From contig CP049016.1 in assembly GCA_004376055.2 (NCBI GenBank), positions 124,001-188,000 of the forward strand: DNA of 64,000 nucleotides. Reading direction: 5' to 3'. Origin of the DNA: Nitrospirales bacterium LBB_01 (GTDB lineage Bacteria > Nitrospirota > Thermodesulfovibrionia > Thermodesulfovibrionales > Magnetobacteriaceae). Made by a program: the position numbers and the translations under genes. Under the pieces are notes generated by a model that was not told the DNA's origin, did no database searches, and was given only the letters and a program-made list of their open reading frames with translations. Within the stretch, counting starts at the first letter, position 1, and each line of letters starts with the position of its first letter. This document shows, piece after piece, positions 2,683 through 55,651 of this stretch.

Positions 2683-2874
2683 ATTGCCTATGCAGTTAGC
2701 TCCGCAAACAAAAAAATGGATTCCTGCCTTCGCAGGAATGACAAGAAAAAAAGGAATGACAAGAAAAAGAAATGACCCCCCTTTGTCATTCCCGCCTACG
2801 AGCGGGAATCCAGTCCTTTTAACTGTATCATTTGCTGAATGAAAAAATTTACAGGAGTTAACTCAATAAGCATT
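2683..2874 (+). mobile_element. MITE-like element, family A, copy 1
   Basis: A 192-bp non-coding palindromic element. It begins ATTGCCTATGCAGTTAGCTCC and ends with an imperfect inverted copy (reverse complement AATGCTTATTGAGTTAACTCC). The interior has two strong hairpins, ATTCCTGC-cttc-GCAGGAAT and ATTCCCGC-ctacga-GCGGGAAT. The element is flanked on both sides by AAAAAATA (2675-2682 and 2875-2882), an 8-bp target-site duplication. It contains no transposase, so mobility would need a transposase in trans. Being 85 bp past the TolC-like gene, its hairpins might also end transcription. Confidence 0.85.
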
Positions 2875-2940
2875 AAAAAATATTTAGCATGGGTATAGCA
2901 TCTGAATTTATCTTTGTTCATCTGTGGTTAAAATTCTTTT

Positions 2941-3114
2941 ATTGCATATGCAGTTAGCTCCGCAAACAAAGAACTGGATTCCTGCTTTCGCAGGAATGAC
3001 AAAAAAAAGAATTGCTCCCCTTTGTCATTCCCGCCTACGAGCGGGAATCCAGTCCTTTAAAATATATCATCTGCTGACAGAAAACCCTCAGTCGGAGTTA
3101 ACTCAATAACCATT
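2941..3114 (+). mobile_element. MITE-like element, family A, copy 2
   Basis: A 174-bp copy in the same orientation as copy 1, with the same terminal inverted repeats and both internal hairpins, flanked by ATTCTTTT at 2933-2940 and again at 3115-3122 (8-bp target duplication). The 66 bases between copies 1 and 2 hold no gene; they include a short CATCTGTGGTTAAA stretch resembling the palindrome near 27.5 kb. The frame across 2924-3109 is repeat-derived and not a gene. Confidence 0.85.
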
Positions 3115-5189: not shown

Positions 5190-5406
5190 AATGCTTATTG
5201 AGTTAACTCCTGTAGATTTTTTTCAGTCAGCAAATGATACAGTTAAAAGGACTGGATTCCCGCTCGTAGGCGGGAATGACAAAGTGAAAAAGGCGGGAAT
5301 GACAAAGGGGGGCCATTTCTTTTTTTTTGTCATTCCTTTTTTTCTTGTCATTCCTGCGAAGGCAGGAATCCATTTTTTTGTTTGCGGAGCTAACTGCATA
5401 GGCAAT
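5190..5406 (-). mobile_element. MITE-like element, family A, copy 3
   Basis: A 217-bp copy inverted relative to copies 1 and 2: it starts AATGCTTATTGAGTTAACTCC and ends GGAGCTAACTGCATAGGCAAT. TAGAAATA flanks it at 5182-5189 and 5407-5414, an 8-bp target duplication that includes the stop codon of the upstream gene. The interior has an extra GGCGGGAATGAC unit, making this copy longer. Reading frames across it encode repeat-derived peptides and are not genes. Confidence 0.87.
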
Positions 5407-16370: not shown

Positions 16371-16623
16371 ATTGCCTATGCAGTTAGCTCCGCAAACAAA
16401 AAAATGGATTCCTGCCTTCGCAGGAATGACAAGAAAAAAAGGAATGACCTCCCCTAAAGGGGATTCCCCTGTAAAATTGCCCCCCTTTGTCATTCCCGCC
16501 CCTTCCCTTTGTCATTCCCGCCCCTTCCCTTTGTCATTCCCGCCTACGAGCGGGAATCCAGTCCTTTTAACTGTGTCATTTGCTGACTGAAAAAAATTTA
16601 CAGGAGTTAACTCAATAAGCATT
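16371..16623 (+). mobile_element. MITE-like element, family A, copy 4 (longest)
   Basis: A 253-bp copy with both terminal inverted repeats intact. The interior is enlarged by a unit of about 21 bp beginning TTTGTCATTCCCGCCCCTTCC, present twice in tandem before the standard right hairpin. The flanks differ (TGTTCTTA left, TAAGTTTT right), so unlike copies 1-3 there is no target duplication. It cuts off the toxin gene on the left and supplies the last codons and stop of coaE on the right. Confidence 0.85.
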
Positions 16624-32122: not shown

Positions 32123-32789
32123 TAATGCCATAGAGGGTATATTAGGTGCGGCAAGGTCTCAGCGGCACCTTCGCTATCACCTGTATGCCGCCGCAATTGT
32201 GCTGCTATTTTGCTACGTTGTTGGTATTACTAAAACAGAGTTTCTAATTATTTCTGTAACGATAATGCTCATCATAGCGCTTGAGCTGCTTAATACAAGT
32301 ATAGAGGCTGTCGTGAATCTGCTGTCACCGGAGATAAATGAATTTGCAAGGATTGCAAAGGACGTTGCTGCAGGGGCAGTGCTAACCACAGCAGTAGGTG
32401 CAGTGGTTATCGGCTATATAATTTTGTTTCCATATCTTGTCACGTTTTTTAACAACGGGCTTACTGTTGCCACACACGGCGGTAATGATATTGCAGTGCT
32501 TGCCTTGTTAATTGTTATCATTTTAGTGGTAATTATTAAAGCCTTAAGTAAGAGGGGGCATCCACTGAGGGGCGGTATGCCAAGCGGTCACGCTGCTGTT
32601 GCGTTTTCCATATGGGTATCCATTACGCTTATCACTAAAAATTTGCTTGCCTCCGTGTTTGCCTTTGCTGCGGCTCTTTTGATAGCACAAAGCAGGGTTG
32701 CTATAAGAGTACATACTAAGTGGGAGGTTTTAATAGGCTCAGTCATTGGCTCTTTGCTGACCTATGCGCTTTTTAGGTTTTTTGCTTAG
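32091..32789 (+). CDS. dgkA: Fused diacylglycerol/undecaprenol kinase and PAP2 phosphatase
   Basis: The N-terminal 110 residues are a DgkA-type small membrane kinase (ELLNTSIEAVVNLL, RIAKDVAAGAVL). The C-terminal half is a PAP2 acid phosphatase-like domain (GGMPSGHAAVAFS, then SRVAIRVHTKWEVLIG). DgkA of Gram-positives phosphorylates undecaprenol, and PAP2 enzymes dephosphorylate undecaprenyl pyrophosphate, so one chain could handle lipid-carrier recycling. The PAP2 third motif has Glu where Asp is usual. The frame opens at 32028, but GTG 32091 fits best, overlapping ybeY by 32 bases. Confidence 0.86.
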   Translation: MPLRRWAESANNAIEGILGAARSQRHLRYHLYAAAIVLLFCYVVGITKTEFLIISVTIMLIIALELLNTSIEAVVNLLSPEINEFARIAKDVAAGAVLTTAVGAVVIGYIILFPYLVTFFNNGLTVATHGGNDIAVLALLIVIILVVIIKALSKRGHPLRGGMPSGHAAVAFSIWVSITLITKNLLASVFAFAAALLIAQSRVAIRVHTKWEVLIGSVIGSLLTYALFRFFA

Positions 32790-32799
32790 ACATCTACTA

Positions 32800-32829
32800 T
32801 TGCCTTTTACATTGACATTGAGTTATAAT
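32800..32829 (+). promoter_or_regulatory. Possible promoter of the EEP-Fic-PLD cassette
   Basis: TTGCCT (32800-32805) and TATAAT (32824-32829) are 18 bases apart and lie 46 bases before the EEP gene's ATG, giving the three-gene unit its own possible start. The nearby TTGACA at 32812 is too close to the TATAAT box to be its -35. Confidence 0.45.
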
Positions 32830-32874
32830 GCGTCATCTACGGGTTGCTAAAAACACTATTAAGGAACTTATAAC

Positions 32875-34404
32875 ATGGAAATTAAGGCTCTGCTATACGG
32901 AATAACGAGTTTTCTGCTTCCGCACTTACCCAAACTGACATCACTGAAAAAAGAAGATGCGGCAGCGGAGGCGGCTGTTGATAAGGACTCAGCACATGAT
33001 GCACAGGCACTCAAATGGGCAAAGAAAATATGGGATAAAGTTAAAAATGCGCCCAAGACAAGGCTTTCCTTTAAAGAGGCACTAAATGACATTATTGAAT
33101 CCCCATCCGATCCTGATGCGCTTGCCGCTTTCAGGTATCAGTTGAGAAAGTATGTGGAGACTGACCCTGCTATCGGAGAAAGTCTAAAACAACTGTGGTT
33201 AGAGATGTCATCACAAGGGGTTGGAGTGGATTTAAGCTCCTCACTGACTGCTGCAAAGTGGATTGATATTTTAAATCAAAATGATGATGTTCTAAAACGG
33301 CTTGAAATGGTGAGACTCTTAAGGACAGGCGTGCCCCCAGAGACTGTGGCAGCACAGTTTCACACAGATTTGAACTATTTATTCAGAGTGCATTCGGCTT
33401 TTTCACTTAACGGAGTGTATGGCATTCTCTCAGGCTCCAATATTTTGCACTGGCTTGATAAGTTAAACAAAGAGGATCCCATCCTTAGGCGTCTTGAAAT
33501 GATCCGCCTTCTTAGGTCAGGCTCCCCTGTTGAGACCATCGCAAATGAGTACCGCGCGGTTAAGGAGTACATATATAGGCTCAACAATAGATTTAGCGCT
33601 AACGGCGTTGTCGCTATTATGGATGAAAATGATTTCCAAAAATACCGCTCACTCTATCCCCCGTACATAAAGGTGTGTTCGTTTAACCTCCACGGCGTTC
33701 ACGATGAAGACCCAACACGGCTTAAACGGATTGCTAACGAGCTTTGCGTGTATGACCCTGATTTGTGCGCTTATCAGGAGGTGATAAAAGGGGCCGGAAT
33801 AGAGGAGACCTCGCTTCAAATAGCCGATATGATGTCAGGCATTACCGGTATGTACTACAGAACCCAGTATGGATACTGTCACATGTATATGAATAAGTAC
33901 CCGGAGGGAATAGCAATTTCAGGGCGTTATAACTTAAAAAATCCTCAGATTATTGACTTAAATAAGGGGCTGGTTGAGGAGCTGCACCCTCTTATGGACA
34001 GATACGCTGCCGCCGCTCAATTTGAAATATACGGTCACAAGGTGATATTTGCATCGGTTCACCTTGACCACAGTGAAAACCCGCGGATTCGTTATGCTCA
34101 GCTGGAAAAACTCGTTAAAGTGCTTGAGTCAACTTATGGAACAGACTACCACGCTTCAATTATAGCAGGGGATTTTAACGACACCGAGGACTCCGTCACC
34201 ATTGAGTATATGACCGACATTGGTTATAAGGATGCTTACAGGCACTGTCACCGCACAGGCGGAAACACCTTTAACTCAACTAATCCATTTACAAGAATTG
34301 ACTACATTATGGTCAAGGGAAAGGTGAAAATCCACAGCGCTGAGCTGATTCTAAATGATCCAAAGTTAAGCGACCACATAGGCGTCTATGCGGTTATTGA
34401 GTAG
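32875..34404 (+). CDS. EEP-family nuclease/phosphatase with N-terminal helical and tandem HTH-like repeats
   Basis: A 509-aa protein, first of a three-gene unit. Residues 268-509 form an endonuclease/exonuclease/phosphatase domain with every catalytic block: CSFNLHG (N271), AYQEV (E302), SVHLDHS, AGDFND (D433, N435), RIDYIM (D476) and LSDH (D500, H501). Residues 129-185 and 192-249 are two near-identical repeats (RLEMVRLLRTG / RLEMIRLLRSG, then ETVAAQF / ETIANEY), helix-turn-helix-like. Residues 1-110 are a helical segment that recalls small N-terminal adaptor modules of bacterial conflict proteins; that comparison is from memory and unproven. No signal peptide, so probably cytosolic. AAGGA precedes ATG 32875. 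Confidence 0.85.
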   Translation: MEIKALLYGITSFLLPHLPKLTSLKKEDAAAEAAVDKDSAHDAQALKWAKKIWDKVKNAPKTRLSFKEALNDIIESPSDPDALAAFRYQLRKYVETDPAIGESLKQLWLEMSSQGVGVDLSSSLTAAKWIDILNQNDDVLKRLEMVRLLRTGVPPETVAAQFHTDLNYLFRVHSAFSLNGVYGILSGSNILHWLDKLNKEDPILRRLEMIRLLRSGSPVETIANEYRAVKEYIYRLNNRFSANGVVAIMDENDFQKYRSLYPPYIKVCSFNLHGVHDEDPTRLKRIANELCVYDPDLCAYQEVIKGAGIEETSLQIADMMSGITGMYYRTQYGYCHMYMNKYPEGIAISGRYNLKNPQIIDLNKGLVEELHPLMDRYAAAAQFEIYGHKVIFASVHLDHSENPRIRYAQLEKLVKVLESTYGTDYHASIIAGDFNDTEDSVTIEYMTDIGYKDAYRHCHRTGGNTFNSTNPFTRIDYIMVKGKVKIHSAELILNDPKLSDHIGVYAVIE

Positions 34405-34474
34405 AGATGTGTTAAGTAATTTAAAAAAAATGAACTTTAACTAATAAGTTTTCATAAGAGAGGGGAGAGACACT

Positions 34475-36103
34475 ATGCCTCACAGAGCGGGATATTTCGT
34501 ATTGGCTTACCAGTGGGATCACCACTGCAAAAGGTTGTACGATTCCCTTATGGGACGGATTAACCACATGCTCAAAGAGCTTGGCGAGCTTGAGCAGGAC
34601 AGCCCGCTTGACCTTACGCAAATTCTCTATTATTATAAAAAATGGCACTATAACAAGGACTTATATAACCACACTTTTGGTGAAATAGAAAAAAGACAGT
34701 TTGTCATAAACTCTCTTGGCTATAGAGGGTACGGAGTAAACATTGATTTGCTTAATGCGCTTGGTGCTCTGAGAAAAGACTATGCAGGGCATATCACATG
34801 GCTTTTAAGTGAAAACTTTAATAAACTTATCCCACACTTAAGGACAATCATACCGCTTGAGCAAAGCCAGATACAGGCTATGGACTCAAGCTACGTGATA
34901 GATGAAATCTGTAAGCGTCTGAACTGGAACACAGAGGAAAACACTCCGGCTGCCGCCCATACGATCCACCTTGAGCTATCCAGCTACTTTAAGATAATGA
35001 GTGAGGAGACCCCGTGGAATGTTAACACCGCTATATTTCAAAAACTGTTCCTCCACCTTGGGACGTCGTCCATGACCATAATGAAGGGGACTGTAGGGCA
35101 CACGGATCAGTTAAGCGCTGCGGATTTAAAAGTTATAGCCAATAGAAACTTCAGAGTGATGTACAGGGAGACTTTTTCAAATCTCCACACCTTTACAGAG
35201 CTTGGGATAGATTTTCTGAAAAAAATCCACCTAAATCTCTCAAAGGGCCTTGTGCCTAATGCTGGAGAGTTCCGAGCGTTTGATTTCCCCGATAAAAACG
35301 GGGTTACGTATGACTGTGAGAATTTCGATAAGGAAATAAAAAGCTTTGCCCATGTCCTTTGGGAGACGTCGCAAAGTTTCCACAATCTTGACGCCTTTGT
35401 TTATGACCTCTGCCGCTCCTACTACATGTTTATCGGGATTCATCCGTTTTGGGATTCTAACGGTCGTGTTGGAAAGTGTTTCTTAAACTACATGCTCCTA
35501 AAAAAAGGGTTGCCTCCGGTGAGTTTTGACGACGATGAGGAGGTGCTGTCCCTTCCCCGATATGGTGGCTCAATGGAGGACGTGTATCATTACATAAAAA
35601 AACGAATACTTGTCGCCATAGACGCCTACTACTATGAAAGATGGAAAATCGAGCACCTTGGCAATATTAACAAACAGATTTACAATGTCGCATTTGACTC
35701 AGGGTTTTACTTTTGGCAGATAGACGATAAAGCACAAAAACTTGAGGTTCATTTCCTTGCGTTTGCCGTTGCCTCAGGCGATCCGCTCTTTAGCAGACTT
35801 CAAGACCAGTGCCGAGTGGTGTTTACCGATGAACTTGCGCTTAACAATATGAGCATACACTGTGGTTTCACTAAAAAAGAACACGCTGCTTGGGAACAGA
35901 CTTTCAGCTTAAAAGGGAATTTCTTCATAAAAGAGGTCGAAATGGATATTAAAGGAGTCAGGACGTTTGACATTGATTTTACAATAGAGCTTCTTAAGCA
36001 TCACTACGACTACAACTACTTCAGTGTCTCGGTCTCTTCTGCCGATGGTGCGCTCATTCATAACAACAAGGGTTTAAACTATACATATAAAATACAGAGG
36101 TGA
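34475..36103 (+). CDS. Fic-domain protein with variant active-site motif
   Basis: A 542-aa protein. The Fic core is at about residues 230-385: LVPNAGEFRAFDF, then HPFWDSNGRVGK at 323-334. The family consensus is HxFx(D/E)GNGRxxR; here the His, Phe, Asp, Asn, Gly and first Arg are kept, but the first Gly is Ser328 and the last Arg is Lys334. AMP transfer is the usual Fic reaction; the changes could alter activity or the nucleotide used. The N-terminal 220 residues are helical, and residues 400-542 look like a beta-rich domain I do not recognise. It starts 70 bases after the EEP gene and is followed two bases later by the PLD gene. Confidence 0.83.
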   Translation: MPHRAGYFVLAYQWDHHCKRLYDSLMGRINHMLKELGELEQDSPLDLTQILYYYKKWHYNKDLYNHTFGEIEKRQFVINSLGYRGYGVNIDLLNALGALRKDYAGHITWLLSENFNKLIPHLRTIIPLEQSQIQAMDSSYVIDEICKRLNWNTEENTPAAAHTIHLELSSYFKIMSEETPWNVNTAIFQKLFLHLGTSSMTIMKGTVGHTDQLSAADLKVIANRNFRVMYRETFSNLHTFTELGIDFLKKIHLNLSKGLVPNAGEFRAFDFPDKNGVTYDCENFDKEIKSFAHVLWETSQSFHNLDAFVYDLCRSYYMFIGIHPFWDSNGRVGKCFLNYMLLKKGLPPVSFDDDEEVLSLPRYGGSMEDVYHYIKKRILVAIDAYYYERWKIEHLGNINKQIYNVAFDSGFYFWQIDDKAQKLEVHFLAFAVASGDPLFSRLQDQCRVVFTDELALNNMSIHCGFTKKEHAAWEQTFSLKGNFFIKEVEMDIKGVRTFDIDFTIELLKHHYDYNYFSVSVSSADGALIHNNKGLNYTYKIQR

Positions 36104-36104
36104 T

Positions 36105-37760
36105 ATGACAAAGAAAACTGCTGATAAAGAAGAGAAAACTGCTGAGACGTCAGGCAAGTATGCTGAGGAATTTTGCCATCCGTCATACAAATGGATAGGG
36201 CACAGACGGTTTGTAACTAATGTTCAAAATTGGAATATATCAAATTTCCCTGGTGGTATTGGGTTTGCCTTTTATAACTACTCTGACGCTAAAGCTCTGA
36301 GAGTTGTCCTAAAGCTCCACAGAGAGGACGGGGTTAAGGAGTACTACATTGTAAATGCTTACCGCTGCGGGGATTTTGGCGAAAATTGGGAAAAATGGCA
36401 GGTTCATCAGTTGCCGCTCTTTCCTTATGAGAGCTTACACGGGCGGATTACTCACATTACGTTTTCATATATAATTCACAAAGATGGCAAATCCATAGGC
36501 TCAGAGTATGACTACAAGTTTGCCCACCTTGACGATTTCCACAATGGGCGCGTTAGCCCTGATGATTTTGAGCACGCATATAAAACGGAAAACACATACC
36601 GCACATATGAGGTAGGCTATGAGGAGGTTCAAAGAGCCTACAACAAAGTAAACAGAGAGTATGCTGATCTTCCTATAAGACCGTTTTTTACACGCGGCAA
36701 CACATGGGACCCTGGGCACCCTATACACGAACTTCACATACACATCGACTGGGTGATTGAAAGAAAAGAAAAAGATCCTGATGGCAGACACTACATTCAG
36801 ATGGCTATCTTTGATTTTGACAACTACCACGTTGCCGAACACCTGATTCATGCCAAAAACAAGGGGGTGGATGTTGAGTGTTTTGGTGAGTGGTCAACCG
36901 TGAGTTCTATGAATGCCGTGCAGAATTTGGCTAAGATGCGTCGGGCTGGAATTCCAATCTATGGGATAGTAAGAAACACGCCCTGTGACTCAAAACACGG
37001 CATAGCAAGTATGCACACCAAGTTTATTATATTTGACGGCGAGGTGGTTCATTCAAGCTCGTATAATCTTCATTTTCACCTGTGGGGCGGAAACTGGGAA
37101 AATGGACTTGTTTATTATTCACAAGACTTTGCCACAATTTATGCAAATATATATCATGCTCTAAGGGGCGGTGTGATTCAGCGTATTGAGGTACAGCCTG
37201 AGGGCAGGTACAATCTGTACTATACGTTTGGAAGCTACTACACGCCGTTTAGGGATTACTACAGGGCGCAGGATGCTATTGTAACGGAAATCAACAATGC
37301 TCGGGAATCTATAATTGTCTCTATGTTTGACATTGGGTGGATGACAGGGGTGACCTCACATGGACACCATGAGGAGGATGTCGTACATGCCCTAATTCAT
37401 GCCAGAAACAGAGGAGTCAGGGTAAAAATAATTCTAAACGGGATGATAGTTCACACGGGAGCTTTACCAGCCTCATGGGATACGCACAGATGGCGTCCTC
37501 TTAAAGAGCCAGTTCAATACCTTAAGAACAACTGGATGGAATGCGTCTTTGTCTATTACCACGAAAGCATATACTCGCCGCTTCATCATAAGTTTGCCGT
37601 ATTTGACAACTACACAGTAATCACGGAGTCTTTCAACTGGTATCCGGCCAGCGTTCATTCAGACGAGGTGCTGTCGGTTATTCGGGATGGCAGAGTGGCA
37701 TGGGAGTTTATATGCGAAGCAGATAAGATTTGTGAGTCTTTCCGGCTTGGCTGGGAATAG
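36105..37760 (+). CDS. Phospholipase D-superfamily protein with two HKD motifs
   Basis: A 551-aa protein with two complete HxKxxxxD motifs: SMHTKFIIFDG (H304, K306, D311) and LHHKFAVFDN (H494, K496, D501). Both are followed by the Ser/Asn-rich strand typical of the fold (HSSSYNLHF; TESFNWYPA). The two halves form one active site in this family, whose members include lipases and nucleases. Residues 29-145 look like a beta-sandwich or carbohydrate-binding-like domain with many aromatic residues. There is no signal peptide, so a cytosolic nuclease or phosphodiesterase is more likely than a secreted lipase. The gene begins one base after the Fic stop, so the two are translationally coupled. Confidence 0.86.
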   Translation: MTKKTADKEEKTAETSGKYAEEFCHPSYKWIGHRRFVTNVQNWNISNFPGGIGFAFYNYSDAKALRVVLKLHREDGVKEYYIVNAYRCGDFGENWEKWQVHQLPLFPYESLHGRITHITFSYIIHKDGKSIGSEYDYKFAHLDDFHNGRVSPDDFEHAYKTENTYRTYEVGYEEVQRAYNKVNREYADLPIRPFFTRGNTWDPGHPIHELHIHIDWVIERKEKDPDGRHYIQMAIFDFDNYHVAEHLIHAKNKGVDVECFGEWSTVSSMNAVQNLAKMRRAGIPIYGIVRNTPCDSKHGIASMHTKFIIFDGEVVHSSSYNLHFHLWGGNWENGLVYYSQDFATIYANIYHALRGGVIQRIEVQPEGRYNLYYTFGSYYTPFRDYYRAQDAIVTEINNARESIIVSMFDIGWMTGVTSHGHHEEDVVHALIHARNRGVRVKIILNGMIVHTGALPASWDTHRWRPLKEPVQYLKNNWMECVFVYYHESIYSPLHHKFAVFDNYTVITESFNWYPASVHSDEVLSVIRDGRVAWEFICEADKICESFRLGWE

Positions 37761-37789: not shown

Positions 37790-37926
37790 AAAGGACTGGA
37801 TTCCCGCTCGTAGGCGGGAATGACAAAGGAGGAGATGCTTTTTGCTATCATTCCTTTTCCTTTTTTGTCATTCCTGCGAAGGCAGGAATCCAGTTTTTTA
37901 TTAGCGGTATTAGCTACAAAGGCAAT
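37790..37926 (-). repeat. Family A element, copy 5 (degenerate)
   Basis: An inverted copy with both hairpins (GGATTCCCGC-tcgtag-GCGGGAATGAC; GTCATTCCTGC-gaag-GCAGGAATCC) and a diverged right terminal repeat ending AAAGGCAAT. The left terminal repeat is not recognisable and I see no target duplication. It separates the PLD gene from pbpC. Confidence 0.75.
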
Positions 37927-37941
37927 AATAGTTATATAAAC

Positions 37942-40074
37942 ATGCTCAAAAAAATCCTAAAATATATATTTCTAATGTCATTACCCCTTATTCCAATGGT
38001 TTTAATTATCTCGCTTTTTATTCCGAATTTTAACTGGATGCCGCCAGAGTTTAAAGATATAAAAAAATCATATAAAAAAAGCGATGTGCTGTTACTTGAT
38101 AGACATGGGCTGCCTATTGAGGAGATTCGCACCGATCAAAAAGGCAGACGCCTTAACTGGACTGCCGTTACCGACATTTCCAGCGCCTTTCTAAAAATCG
38201 TGGTGTTTTCCGAGGACAGGCATTTTTATACGCACTCAGGAGTTGACTACAAAGCGCTGATAAAGGCCGTAATTGATACATTTACAAAGAAAAAACGGCG
38301 CGGCGCCTCCACAATTACAATGCAGCTGGCTGTTGTGTTAAAAAAAGACATTAAGGGTTCTAAGAAAACATTTGCAAGAAAGTTGGCCCAAATCCTTGCA
38401 GCCCGCCAAATTGAAAAACTCTGGTCAAAAACTGAAATCCTTGAGGCATACCTTAATCTGATAACTTTCCGTGGAGAACTTCAGGGAATAAGCGCCGCCT
38501 CTTATGGGCTCTTTGGAAAATCACCCGCTGGCCTAAACGAAACAGAGTCTGTTATATTAGCTTCATTAATAGTCTCCCCAAATGCCGATCCGCAGATTAC
38601 CGCAAGACGCGCCTGTGCCCTAAGTAAATCTATGGGCAACAATTCCGAATGCACTCAAATTGAAACTATGACCAAAGAAAGGCTAAGCATACCTTATAGG
38701 ATTACTCCTGCTGTTTCGTTAGCTCCTCATTTTGCCAGAAAGTTTTTGAAAGTGAGCGCTGATAACCTTACTACATCACTTGACGCTAACCTTCAGAGAT
38801 ACCTCATTGAAACGCTCAACAACAGTATCTATCGGCTCAGGCAAAGAAACGTTAAAGACGGAGCTATCCTTGTTGTAGAAAACAAAACAGGTCAGATATT
38901 AGGCTATGTCGGCAACTCCGGTTTAAGTTCCAGTGCCCGTCATGTTGACGGTATTACGGCAAAACGCCAGGCAGGGTCAACTCTTAAGCCGTTTCTTTAT
39001 GAACTGGCGATAGAGAAAAAATATCTTACAGCCGCCTCATTAATAGAGGACACTCCTGTACAATTGCAAACTATATCGGGACTCTACGTGCCGGAAAACT
39101 ATGATAACACCTATAGGGGCGCTGTGTCTTTACGCACTGCGCTTTCATCATCCATTAACATTCCAGCCGTCAAAACGATACTTCTGACCGGTGTGGAGCC
39201 GTTTTACAACCGCCTTAAACAGCTTGGCTTTGATAGTCTAACAGAGGGAGCTGACTACTACGGAGCCTCACTTGCCCTTGGTTCAGCCGATATAACCCTA
39301 ATGGAACTGGTTAATGCCTACCGTACCTTGGCAAACAAGGGCATATACAGTAAGTTGACGATGACAATTGATAATACATCTGTTACAGGCAAAAAAATAA
39401 TGAATGAGCGGGCGGTTTTTATAATCTCCTCGATACTTTCAGACAGAGAGGCAAGAAGCACAACGTTTGGATTAGAAAACCCGCTTTCTACAAAATTCTG
39501 GAGTGCCGCCAAAACAGGCACAAGTAAGGACATGCGGGATAACTGGTGCGTTGGTTACTCAGACACATACACGGTTGGGGTGTGGATAGGAAACTTTTCA
39601 GGTGAGCCAATGCGGGATGTTACAGGAATTACAGGAGCAGCCCCCTTGTGGCTTGAGACTATGACATATCTACACAGAAACAATCCGTCAAAGCCTCCGG
39701 CTGCTGTCTCTGAACTAATACAAAGGCAGGTATCATTTTCTGGCACATCCGAGTCTCCGCTCCTTGAGTGGTTCATTAAAGGTACTGAGCCAAACACTGT
39801 TATTGCAGCAGTTAAATCCGACAGTACTACTCAAATAACATACCCCATTGATGGTGCTATCTTTGCCATTGACCTGGATATTCCAAAGGATGCCCAGCGC
39901 ATCCCATTTAATTACAAACCATCCGGCTATAATTTCCAATGGGTAATAGACAGGAAAAACACCGGCGTCTTTAAGGACGTCTTTCTCTGGAAACCCACTC
40001 ACGGTAAACATATTGTCTCTATTGCAAACAAAACCGGCGTTGTTGTTGATAGTGTTAGGTTTGTGGTTAGGTGA
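37942..40074 (+). CDS. pbpC: Penicillin-binding protein 1C
   Basis: A bifunctional class A PBP (710 aa) with an N-terminal membrane helix (YIFLMSLPLIPMVLIISLF). The transglycosylase has EDRHFYTHSGVDYKA with the catalytic Glu and GASTITMQLA. The transpeptidase has the SxxK site in GSTLKPFLYEL, the SSSIN motif and KTGTSKDM. The C-terminal 90 residues resemble the BiPBP_C domain of PBP1C. The alpha-2-macroglobulin gene that often accompanies pbpC is not here. MITE copy 5 lies just upstream, so the promoter may be in or near the element. Confidence 0.94.
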   Translation: MLKKILKYIFLMSLPLIPMVLIISLFIPNFNWMPPEFKDIKKSYKKSDVLLLDRHGLPIEEIRTDQKGRRLNWTAVTDISSAFLKIVVFSEDRHFYTHSGVDYKALIKAVIDTFTKKKRRGASTITMQLAVVLKKDIKGSKKTFARKLAQILAARQIEKLWSKTEILEAYLNLITFRGELQGISAASYGLFGKSPAGLNETESVILASLIVSPNADPQITARRACALSKSMGNNSECTQIETMTKERLSIPYRITPAVSLAPHFARKFLKVSADNLTTSLDANLQRYLIETLNNSIYRLRQRNVKDGAILVVENKTGQILGYVGNSGLSSSARHVDGITAKRQAGSTLKPFLYELAIEKKYLTAASLIEDTPVQLQTISGLYVPENYDNTYRGAVSLRTALSSSINIPAVKTILLTGVEPFYNRLKQLGFDSLTEGADYYGASLALGSADITLMELVNAYRTLANKGIYSKLTMTIDNTSVTGKKIMNERAVFIISSILSDREARSTTFGLENPLSTKFWSAAKTGTSKDMRDNWCVGYSDTYTVGVWIGNFSGEPMRDVTGITGAAPLWLETMTYLHRNNPSKPPAAVSELIQRQVSFSGTSESPLLEWFIKGTEPNTVIAAVKSDSTTQITYPIDGAIFAIDLDIPKDAQRIPFNYKPSGYNFQWVIDRKNTGVFKDVFLWKPTHGKHIVSIANKTGVVVDSVRFVVR

Positions 40075-40136: not shown

Positions 40137-40661
40137 ATGAGTTATGAAAGGGAAATTGTGTTTAGAGAATCTGCGATAAATGATACGGTTGAACATGTTA
40201 TCTCTATGGACGCCCAAAAAACTGATGAGATGGTTTTTACTTTGGGGTATGAAGGCAGGAGTCTCGAGGATTACCTTAACCGTTTAGTTAAGAATAATGT
40301 TCAAATACTTTTTGATGTCCGTAAAAATGCAATAAGCAGAAAATATGGATTTTCTAAAAGCAGATTAGAAAAGTCGGTAAACAATCTCAATATACAGTAC
40401 ATACACCTGCCCGAACTGGGAATTGATTCGTCCCAGAGAAAGTCTCTCAATACTCAGGACGATTATGACGCTTTATTGGCTAATTATGGAAATCTTATTT
40501 TGCCCAATCATTTAGATTCTGTAGAAAAGATATATAGGCTTATCAAAATTAATAAAAGAATTGCAATTACGTGTTTTGAAGCAATGTTTTATCAATGTCA
40601 CAGAAGTGTTATAGCAAAAATTTTATCAACAAATTATGGTTTTCAAGTAAAACACATATAG
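40137..40661 (+). CDS. DUF488-domain protein
   Basis: A 174-aa protein with the DUF488 pattern: FTLGYEGRSLEDYLNRL, ILFDVRKNAISRKYGFSKSRL, IQYIHLPELGI, and the Cys-containing ITCFEAMFYQCHRSVIA near the C-terminus. DUF488 proteins have no settled function; a thiol or nucleic-acid role has been suggested from the conserved Cys/His. It is followed six bases later by a second uncharacterised gene, and I recall such pairs recurring, which suggests a joint function. Confidence 0.83.
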   Translation: MSYEREIVFRESAINDTVEHVISMDAQKTDEMVFTLGYEGRSLEDYLNRLVKNNVQILFDVRKNAISRKYGFSKSRLEKSVNNLNIQYIHLPELGIDSSQRKSLNTQDDYDALLANYGNLILPNHLDSVEKIYRLIKINKRIAITCFEAMFYQCHRSVIAKILSTNYGFQVKHI

Positions 40662-40667
40662 TCTGTA

Positions 40668-41477
40668 ATGTTTATGAAAACCAAAATTTTGATAACCGTA
40701 AAAACGTATCCTACATTGTCTGCAAAATATGATGAGATTGTATGTACGGCAGGCTTCAGAGAAGATGGCACATGGGTGAGACTATATCCGATTCCTTTTA
40801 GAAAGTTGGATTATGAAAAACAATATAAAAAGTATCAGTGGATAGAGTTAAAGATAGAACGTAATAGCAGTGACCCGCGCAAGGAAAGCTATCGTCCGGT
40901 CAATATAAATGACATCGTAACTGGAGTTTGGATTGAACCTACTAATTACTGGAGGGAGCGAAAAGAAATAGTATTAAAAAAGGTCTATACCAACATGGAA
41001 ATTTTAATAGAAGAGGCGAAAAATCCTGATAAATGTACTTCTCTGGCAGTGTTTAAACCCTCCGAAATAATAGACTTCAAATTTACGAAAACAGTGAGAG
41101 AATGGGACAAGGTTAAACTGGCTCAACTAGACCAATTAAAACTATATGAGAAAAATGACAATCCTTTTAAGGTGGTAAAGAAACTACCATACAAGTTTTC
41201 ATATATATTCATGGAGGATTCTTCAGTAGAAAGAACTTTAATGATAGAAGATTGGGAAATTGGACAACTTTTTTGGAACTGTTGCAAAAAGCATAATGGA
41301 GATGAAATTAAAGCATGCAACGATGTAAAGAAGAAGTACTTTGATGATTTTGCAAAAACTAAAGATTTGTACTTTTATCTGGGTACCACCAGAGAGTTTC
41401 ATTTCCATGCAAAAAATCCTTTTATCATTATAGGAACATTTCACCCTATGATTGAGCCGCAAGATGGATTATTTTAG
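40668..41477 (+). CDS. Conserved hypothetical protein paired with DUF488
   Basis: A 269-aa cytosolic protein I recognise as conserved but without a named function. The N-terminus reads KILITVKTYPTLSAKYDEIVCTAGF and is followed by WVRLYPIPFRKLDYEKQYKKYQW; the C-terminus ends FIIIGTFHPMIEP. It begins with ATG 40668 (ATG 40674 possible), directly after the DUF488 stop. It has no transmembrane segment. The high Lys/Tyr content and AT-rich DNA resemble defence-type genes, but this is weak evidence. Confidence 0.72.
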   Translation: MFMKTKILITVKTYPTLSAKYDEIVCTAGFREDGTWVRLYPIPFRKLDYEKQYKKYQWIELKIERNSSDPRKESYRPVNINDIVTGVWIEPTNYWRERKEIVLKKVYTNMEILIEEAKNPDKCTSLAVFKPSEIIDFKFTKTVREWDKVKLAQLDQLKLYEKNDNPFKVVKKLPYKFSYIFMEDSSVERTLMIEDWEIGQLFWNCCKKHNGDEIKACNDVKKKYFDDFAKTKDLYFYLGTTREFHFHAKNPFIIIGTFHPMIEPQDGLF

Positions 41478-55492: not shown

Positions 55493-55651
55493 AATGCTTA
55501 TCAAGTTAACTCTGGCAGACTGTTTTCTAAATTATAAGTATGTAGGGTTATATGTTTTTGAATTGAAAAAAAGGATGGATTCCCGCTCGGAGGCGGGAAT
55601 GACAAGGAGGATAGTTATTTTTTTGTCATTCCTGCGAAAGCAGGAATCCAG
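55493..55651 (-). mobile_element. Family A element, copy 6
   Basis: The left end AATGCTTATCAAGTTAACTC is a clear terminal repeat of family A, in the orientation of copy 3. Both hairpins follow (GGATTCCCGCTCGGAGGCGGGAATGAC region and CATTCCTGC-gaaa-GCAGGAATCC). The expected right terminal repeat is not recognisable, and no target duplication is visible, so the copy is incomplete. It sits at the broken end of the endonuclease gene and 30 bases before the next gene. Confidence 0.75.

Follow-up and report, generated by a model that had tools for sequence, protein, structure and literature searches.

A relocating EEP-Fic-PLD gene cassette of magnetotactic Nitrospirota, possibly an endogenous Fic-controlled phosphodiesterase module

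Three neighbouring genes in the window (the whole stretch of 64,000 nucleotides that was analyzed) encode an EEP-family protein, a Fic-domain protein and a PLD-superfamily protein. They form a self-contained cassette that occasionally moves, or passes to another lineage, in one piece, and the trio is under strong purifying selection. We propose that it is an endogenous intracellular module, relocating yet conserved, in which the Fic protein controls two phosphodiesterases. This reading is tentative, with a probability of roughly 0.4. The trio is concentrated in one family of magnetotactic bacteria, where it is found reproducibly and with an unusual Fic protein. It is real and apparently undescribed; an earlier note on this DNA knew of no described system with this gene set, and none was found in databases or open-licence full texts. 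If the Fic protein does control both phosphodiesterases, the trio would represent a type of Fic partnership that is new and differs from FicTA.

The source genome of the window is a single contig of 3.27 Mb. The host organism belongs to the Magnetobacteriaceae, which are magnetotactic Nitrospirota, and its nearest named relatives are metagenome-assembled genomes of this family, for example nDJH6bin1 and Candidatus Magnetominusculus xianensis. nDJH6bin1 and LBB01 form one clade inside the Magnetobacteriaceae, a family of magnetotactic bacteria (PMC9376291). The features of the locus are collected in Table 1. All three genes are on the same strand, EEP being separated from Fic by 70 bp and Fic from PLD by 1 bp; the open reading frames agree with the order and spacing described in the earlier note. 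A dgkA-PAP2 pair ends 85 bp upstream of EEP.

Table 1. Features of the EEP-Fic-PLD locus (positions in the window)
Feature	Position	Strand	Basis
Conserved leader at the left edge of the homologous unit, 6 bp past the dgkA stop	32795-32862	+	68 bp conserved
Promoter TTGCCT-N18-TATAAT	32800-32829	+	same 18-nt spacing in G001 and G002
EEP-family protein, 509 aa, EEP domain aa 268-501 (33676-34377)	32875-34404	+	ORF and Pfam
Conserved N-terminal hydrophobic segment of EEP, aa 3-21	32881-32937	+	Kyte-Doolittle
Two tandem HTH_23-type repeats of EEP, aa 138-183 and 206-250	33286-33624	+	Pfam
Fic-domain protein (542 aa) with a helical N-part, the Fic core (aa 245-341) and a C-terminal beta domain	34475-36103	+	ORF and Pfam
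Fic active-site motif HPFWDSNGRVGK, aa 323-334, non-canonical G->S and R2->K	35441-35476	+	homologue comparison
C-terminal beta domain of Fic, aa 400-542, weak CBM21 fold match	35672-36100	+	Foldseek
PLD-superfamily protein, 551 aa: N-terminal beta domain (aa 24-141) and two PLD repeats	36105-37760	+	ORF and Pfam
HKD motif 1 (HTKFIIFD)	37014-37037	+	motif conserved
HKD motif 2 (HHKFAVFD)	37584-37607	+	motif conserved
Paired REP-like palindromes just 3' of PLD, outside the mobile unit	37798-37891		genome-wide pattern hits

The earlier suggestion that the cassette has a promoter of its own is borne out by conservation ahead of relocated cassettes, not by pattern count. By count alone, TTGCCT-N18-TATAAT is no more frequent than expected by chance. 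The same element is kept ahead of the cassette at other genomic sites, and the upstream 68 bp that include it go with the cassette. This leader is 87% identical to that of G002 and 81% identical to that of G003, and both of these cassettes lie at other genomic sites; the G003 leader is interrupted by an insert. At the other end, the palindromes just beyond PLD are probably the transcription end of the cassette, and there is a terminator-like site at 37870-37889. The paired palindromes GGATTCCCGCTCGTAGGCGGGAATGAC / GGATTCCTGCCTTCGCAGGAATGAC give 12 pattern hits in the window and 456 exact hits in the genome, with 0 in the control; they are a very abundant REP/BIME-like element, and we rejected them as a cassette-specific feature on the basis of these 456 hits. 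Other sites in the window are at 2718-3050, 5254-5371, 16406-16559 and 55577-55649.

The gene order recurs widely in the family. Fic and PLD are each present in 16/20 Magnetobacteriaceae genomes and EEP in 14/20, the difference being due to contig ends in G014 and G017. Each of the 14 family genomes in which the locus is complete has EEP-Fic-PLD in this arrangement and on one strand, and so does G050, which belongs to another family of the same taxonomic order. Recurrence in 15 genomes is far above chance. Four family genomes are without the trio (G009, 99% complete; G012, 88%; G006, 79%; G019, 64%), and only G009 is a firm absence. Across the phylum, PLD occurs in 15 of 396 genomes. It stands without EEP and Fic in G244 and G260, both of the same family as G050, and in G234, from a more distant family, a short contig ends with EEP followed by PLD, and no Fic is visible. 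The trio is thus not strictly obligate. Occurrence of each gene by itself, which the earlier note had set against its own proposal, is seen in part, namely for PLD in G244 and G260. Outside Nitrospirota the search used exact short peptide patterns of Fic, and distant relatives may exist elsewhere. The locus of G007 (L066:11296-14558) contains additional genes: a 77-aa ORF between EEP and Fic that looks HicA-like by eye, and genes of 168 aa and 188 aa between Fic and PLD, the latter with a weak HEPN match (E 0.08).

Almost every lineage has other genes around the cassette. G002 has conserved copies of both blocks that flank the window cassette, with no cassette between them. General rearrangement may contribute to this relocation signal. 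The clearest case is G050, in which a 4.9-kb insert between glgB and aroC holds only the trio. The region is otherwise collinear with its congeners G030 and G041, where the site is empty and glgB and aroC are a few tens of bases apart. Beside the PLD end of the insert, the native sequence AATATTCTATCACAT persists, and neither a recombinase nor a target-site duplication was seen. The comparison with the empty site is clean, and it makes movement as a unit visible: the trio moves together and without a recombinase of its own. The G050 PLD is 73% identical to that of the window, against 57% for the PLD of G244 and G260, which fits transfer from a Magnetobacteriaceae line. In G155 (L126:5381-9569), other genes, about 4 kb in all, occupy the glgB-aroC gap, which suggests that insertions are readily accepted here. 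A possible pair of terminal inverted repeats around the window cassette (25 nt, 80%, 32783-32807 / 37918-37942) was treated as chance; its right arm lies beyond the REP element.

Within the family, the trio is old and vertically kept. Its dN/dS is 0.03-0.07 between the window and three congeners, mostly lower than the 0.04-0.13 that PhoH, DgkA and PBP1C show for these genome pairs, at a dS comparable to or somewhat above theirs. The gene trees of the trio recover genera, with support that differs from tree to tree.

The Fic protein departs from described members of its family. The Fic domain (PF02661) is detected at E 3e-7, above the Pfam cut-off, and FICD is the best PDB match both by structure (Foldseek) and by sequence. 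The predicted AlphaFold model is poor in part, with pLDDT below 50 for aa 197-284. The fold and catalytic histidine of a Fic AMP-transferase are present (PF02661, FICD fold match, His323), and His323 is invariant among homologues. The adenylylation (AMPylator) consensus of Fic is HxFx[D/E]GNGRxxR (PMC5033356, PMC5651007). All 17 of 17 homologues carry a variant, HPFxDSNGRxxK (given also as HPFxDSNGRVGK), in place of it. The Fic domain read by the earlier note, which described Fic proteins as AMP-transferring toxins or regulators, is confirmed; the motif departs from the AMPylator consensus. An inhibitory [S/T]xxxE[G/N] motif is not conserved across the 17 Fic sequences. In EcFicTA and VbhTA, the inhibitory glutamate bridges to the second arginine of the motif (PMC5033356), and the joint change of the glutamate and this arginine is suggestive for that reason. 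No small FicA-like partner gene was seen in the cassette, a result that concerns separate genes; EEP itself could still harbour an inhibitor in disguise. About 120 residues ahead of the catalytic histidine there is an invariant TIMKG segment. We take its position to be about that of the class II helix in FICD, a placement by position and not by alignment. The cassette protein thus has the Fic fold and the HPFxDxNGR motif in common with FICD/HYPE, SoFic (class II) and FicTA. Unlike them, it has the G->S and R2->K changes, no inhibitory glutamate, no FicA gene, an extra helical N-part of about 200 aa and a C-terminal beta domain. Its partners are EEP and PLD genes, unlike those of FicTA.

The EEP domain (PF03372, E 9e-11) is C-terminal to two HTH_23 stretches (E 5e-7). 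Its catalytic motifs N, QEV, GDFN, RIDY and SDH are kept in 16/16 homologues, and both HKD motifs of PLD are likewise kept, as the earlier note had read them. The complete EEP catalytic set is shared with the PRK05421-like endonuclease/exonuclease/phosphatase family. Unlike that family, EEP here has the tandem HTH_23 repeats and a hydrophobic N-terminus, and it scores 23 against the PRK05421-like NCBIfam model, where the cut-off is 144. The Kyte-Doolittle mean of the N-terminal segment is 1.0 in the window and up to 1.9 in relatives. From this composition, contact of the EEP N-terminus with the membrane is possible. No obviously cleavable signal peptide is seen in EEP, in line with the earlier note, although the conserved hydrophobic segment qualifies its statement.

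PLD contains two stretches of PLDc_2 (PF13091, E 1e-33), and HxKxxxxD is found twice in every full-length homologue. The predicted model has a mean pLDDT of 81 and matches both phospholipase D and the PLD3/PLD4 exonucleases, and these model-based matches do not settle lipid versus nucleic acid as the substrate. PLD is closest to nuclease-type members, namely DrmC (43 bits), NucT, mitoPLD/Zucchini and Nuc. Two PLD repeats and intact HKD motifs are common to PLD, DISARM DrmC, NucT-type nucleases and PLD3/PLD4. The DrmC score is under the cut-off of 133, the other DISARM genes are absent, the neighbours in the cassette are other genes and PLD here has an N-terminal beta domain; the cassette was not recognized as a DISARM system.

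In the module that we favor, the three products would act in a single intracellular pathway. Fic would covalently modify a partner protein, most simply EEP, PLD or a client common to both, and this modification would set the activity of the two phosphodiester-cleaving enzymes. EEP could be positioned on DNA by its HTH repeats or at the membrane by its hydrophobic N-terminus; for PLD and Fic, beta-sandwich domains would do this. The role would be a regularly needed endogenous function, rather than that of a toxin-antitoxin pair or a fast-turnover anti-phage system. Action on alpha-glucan, a storage polymer, is the leading hint as to site, and a weak one.

An alternative is an anti-phage or conflict system in which Fic senses or disables and EEP and PLD degrade nucleic acid. 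We consider it rather unlikely. Mobility of the unit without conserved neighbours is also typical of defence cassettes, the cassette has been transferred to another family (G050), and the relatives of PLD are nuclease-type. Candidate defence genes lie nearby: an AbiLi/AbiLii-like pair directly downstream of the G010 cassette on the same strand (L068:6060-7938), a PDC-S03 gene adjoining the cassette in G001, and the gene with the weak HEPN match inside the G007 cassette. However, AbiL adjoins the cassette at one site of about 14, and such proximity of candidate defence genes may be general background in these genomes. The trio gives no specific defence-family match, only superfamily-level ones in PADLOC and NCBIfam scores far under the cut-offs. 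It is near-fixed in the family rather than patchy, and its evolution is slower than that of core genes nearby. Searches of phages, plasmids and viral contigs found no homologue of Fic or PLD; a CBM21-EEP query on plasmids returned only generic EEP domains. Near-fixation, slow evolution and the lack of phage, plasmid or viral carriers favor an endogenous function over defence. The regulated toxin or anti-phage unit of the earlier note thus stands as a conserved, mobile unit with its own promoter, but its defence role is possible and unsupported.

Alternatively, the trio may be a module of the alpha-glucan (glycogen) granule, to which carbohydrate-binding domains bring it to regulate or edit branching or phosphate. 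We regard this as unlikely. The EEP homologue of G234, which adjoins the PLD homologue, carries two CBM_21 domains (E 2e-19), and CBM_21 is rare, being found in 2 of 395 phylum genomes. The C-terminal domain of the window Fic gives weak Foldseek matches to CBM21 (2eef and 7qf7; prob 0.69 and 0.54, E 0.16 and 0.28), but CBM21 at this end was rejected by sequence, with no match in Magnetobacteriaceae Fic. A GH57 branching enzyme lies 72 bp upstream of the G008 cassette and GlgB about 100 bp downstream of the G050 cassette, both on the same strand. Two such neighbours have a chance probability of about 1e-4 before correction for the after-the-fact choice of category. This hint is weakened because the category was chosen afterwards and because the G050 site is a clean insertion beside a pre-existing glgB, so that the position may be random. 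At the other cassette sites, which are partly annotated, no adjoining glucan gene was recognized, and in G000 the cassette is separated by about 0.8 Mb from glgB and by about 1.2 Mb from the GH57 gene. The CBM21 glycogen-targeting subunits (PPP1R3) are matched here by CBM21 on a distant EEP homologue and by the weak Fic fold match. Unlike PPP1R3, the window's own proteins have no CBM21 sequence match, and glucan binding is only conjectured. The complete 4.7-Mb genome G222 also encodes a protein of 267 aa (L123:9814-10617) that has two CBM21-type domains but lacks any enzyme domain.

More speculative, and quite improbable, is a new mobile system in which an uninhibited non-canonical Fic switches the two phosphodiesterases through covalent modification. 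Storage glucan or foreign nucleic acid would be the site of recruitment, and the bare cassette would spread without its own recombinase. A phospholipid or phosphate metabolism cassette linked to dgkA-PAP2, the alternative in the earlier note, is very unlikely. The pair is directly upstream in the window, and the EEP and PLD folds include lipid-active enzymes. However, among the 10 other cassette genomes with an identified dgkA, this gene is either about 41 kb from the cassette (G007) or on a different contig. Conserved dgkA-PAP2 adjacency was rejected as particular to the window strain, and the context of a single window proved misleading. Magnetosome-associated genes outside the magnetosome cluster are a hardly tenable reading, as the phylum-wide co-occurrence with the magnetochrome domain (12/15 PLD genomes, Fisher p 5e-15) is driven by one family (p = 0.08 outside it), PLD occurs without magnetochrome in G050, G260 and G234 and the reverse holds in nine genomes, so that strict linkage was rejected.

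Elsewhere in the window, a DUF488 gene and its partner (40137-41477) strongly match the PADLOC candidate defence pair PDC-M19A/M19B, with 214 and 401 bits. They lie in a low-GC stretch (0.34 vs 0.43), and the block of this pair with PBP1C is conserved in G002.
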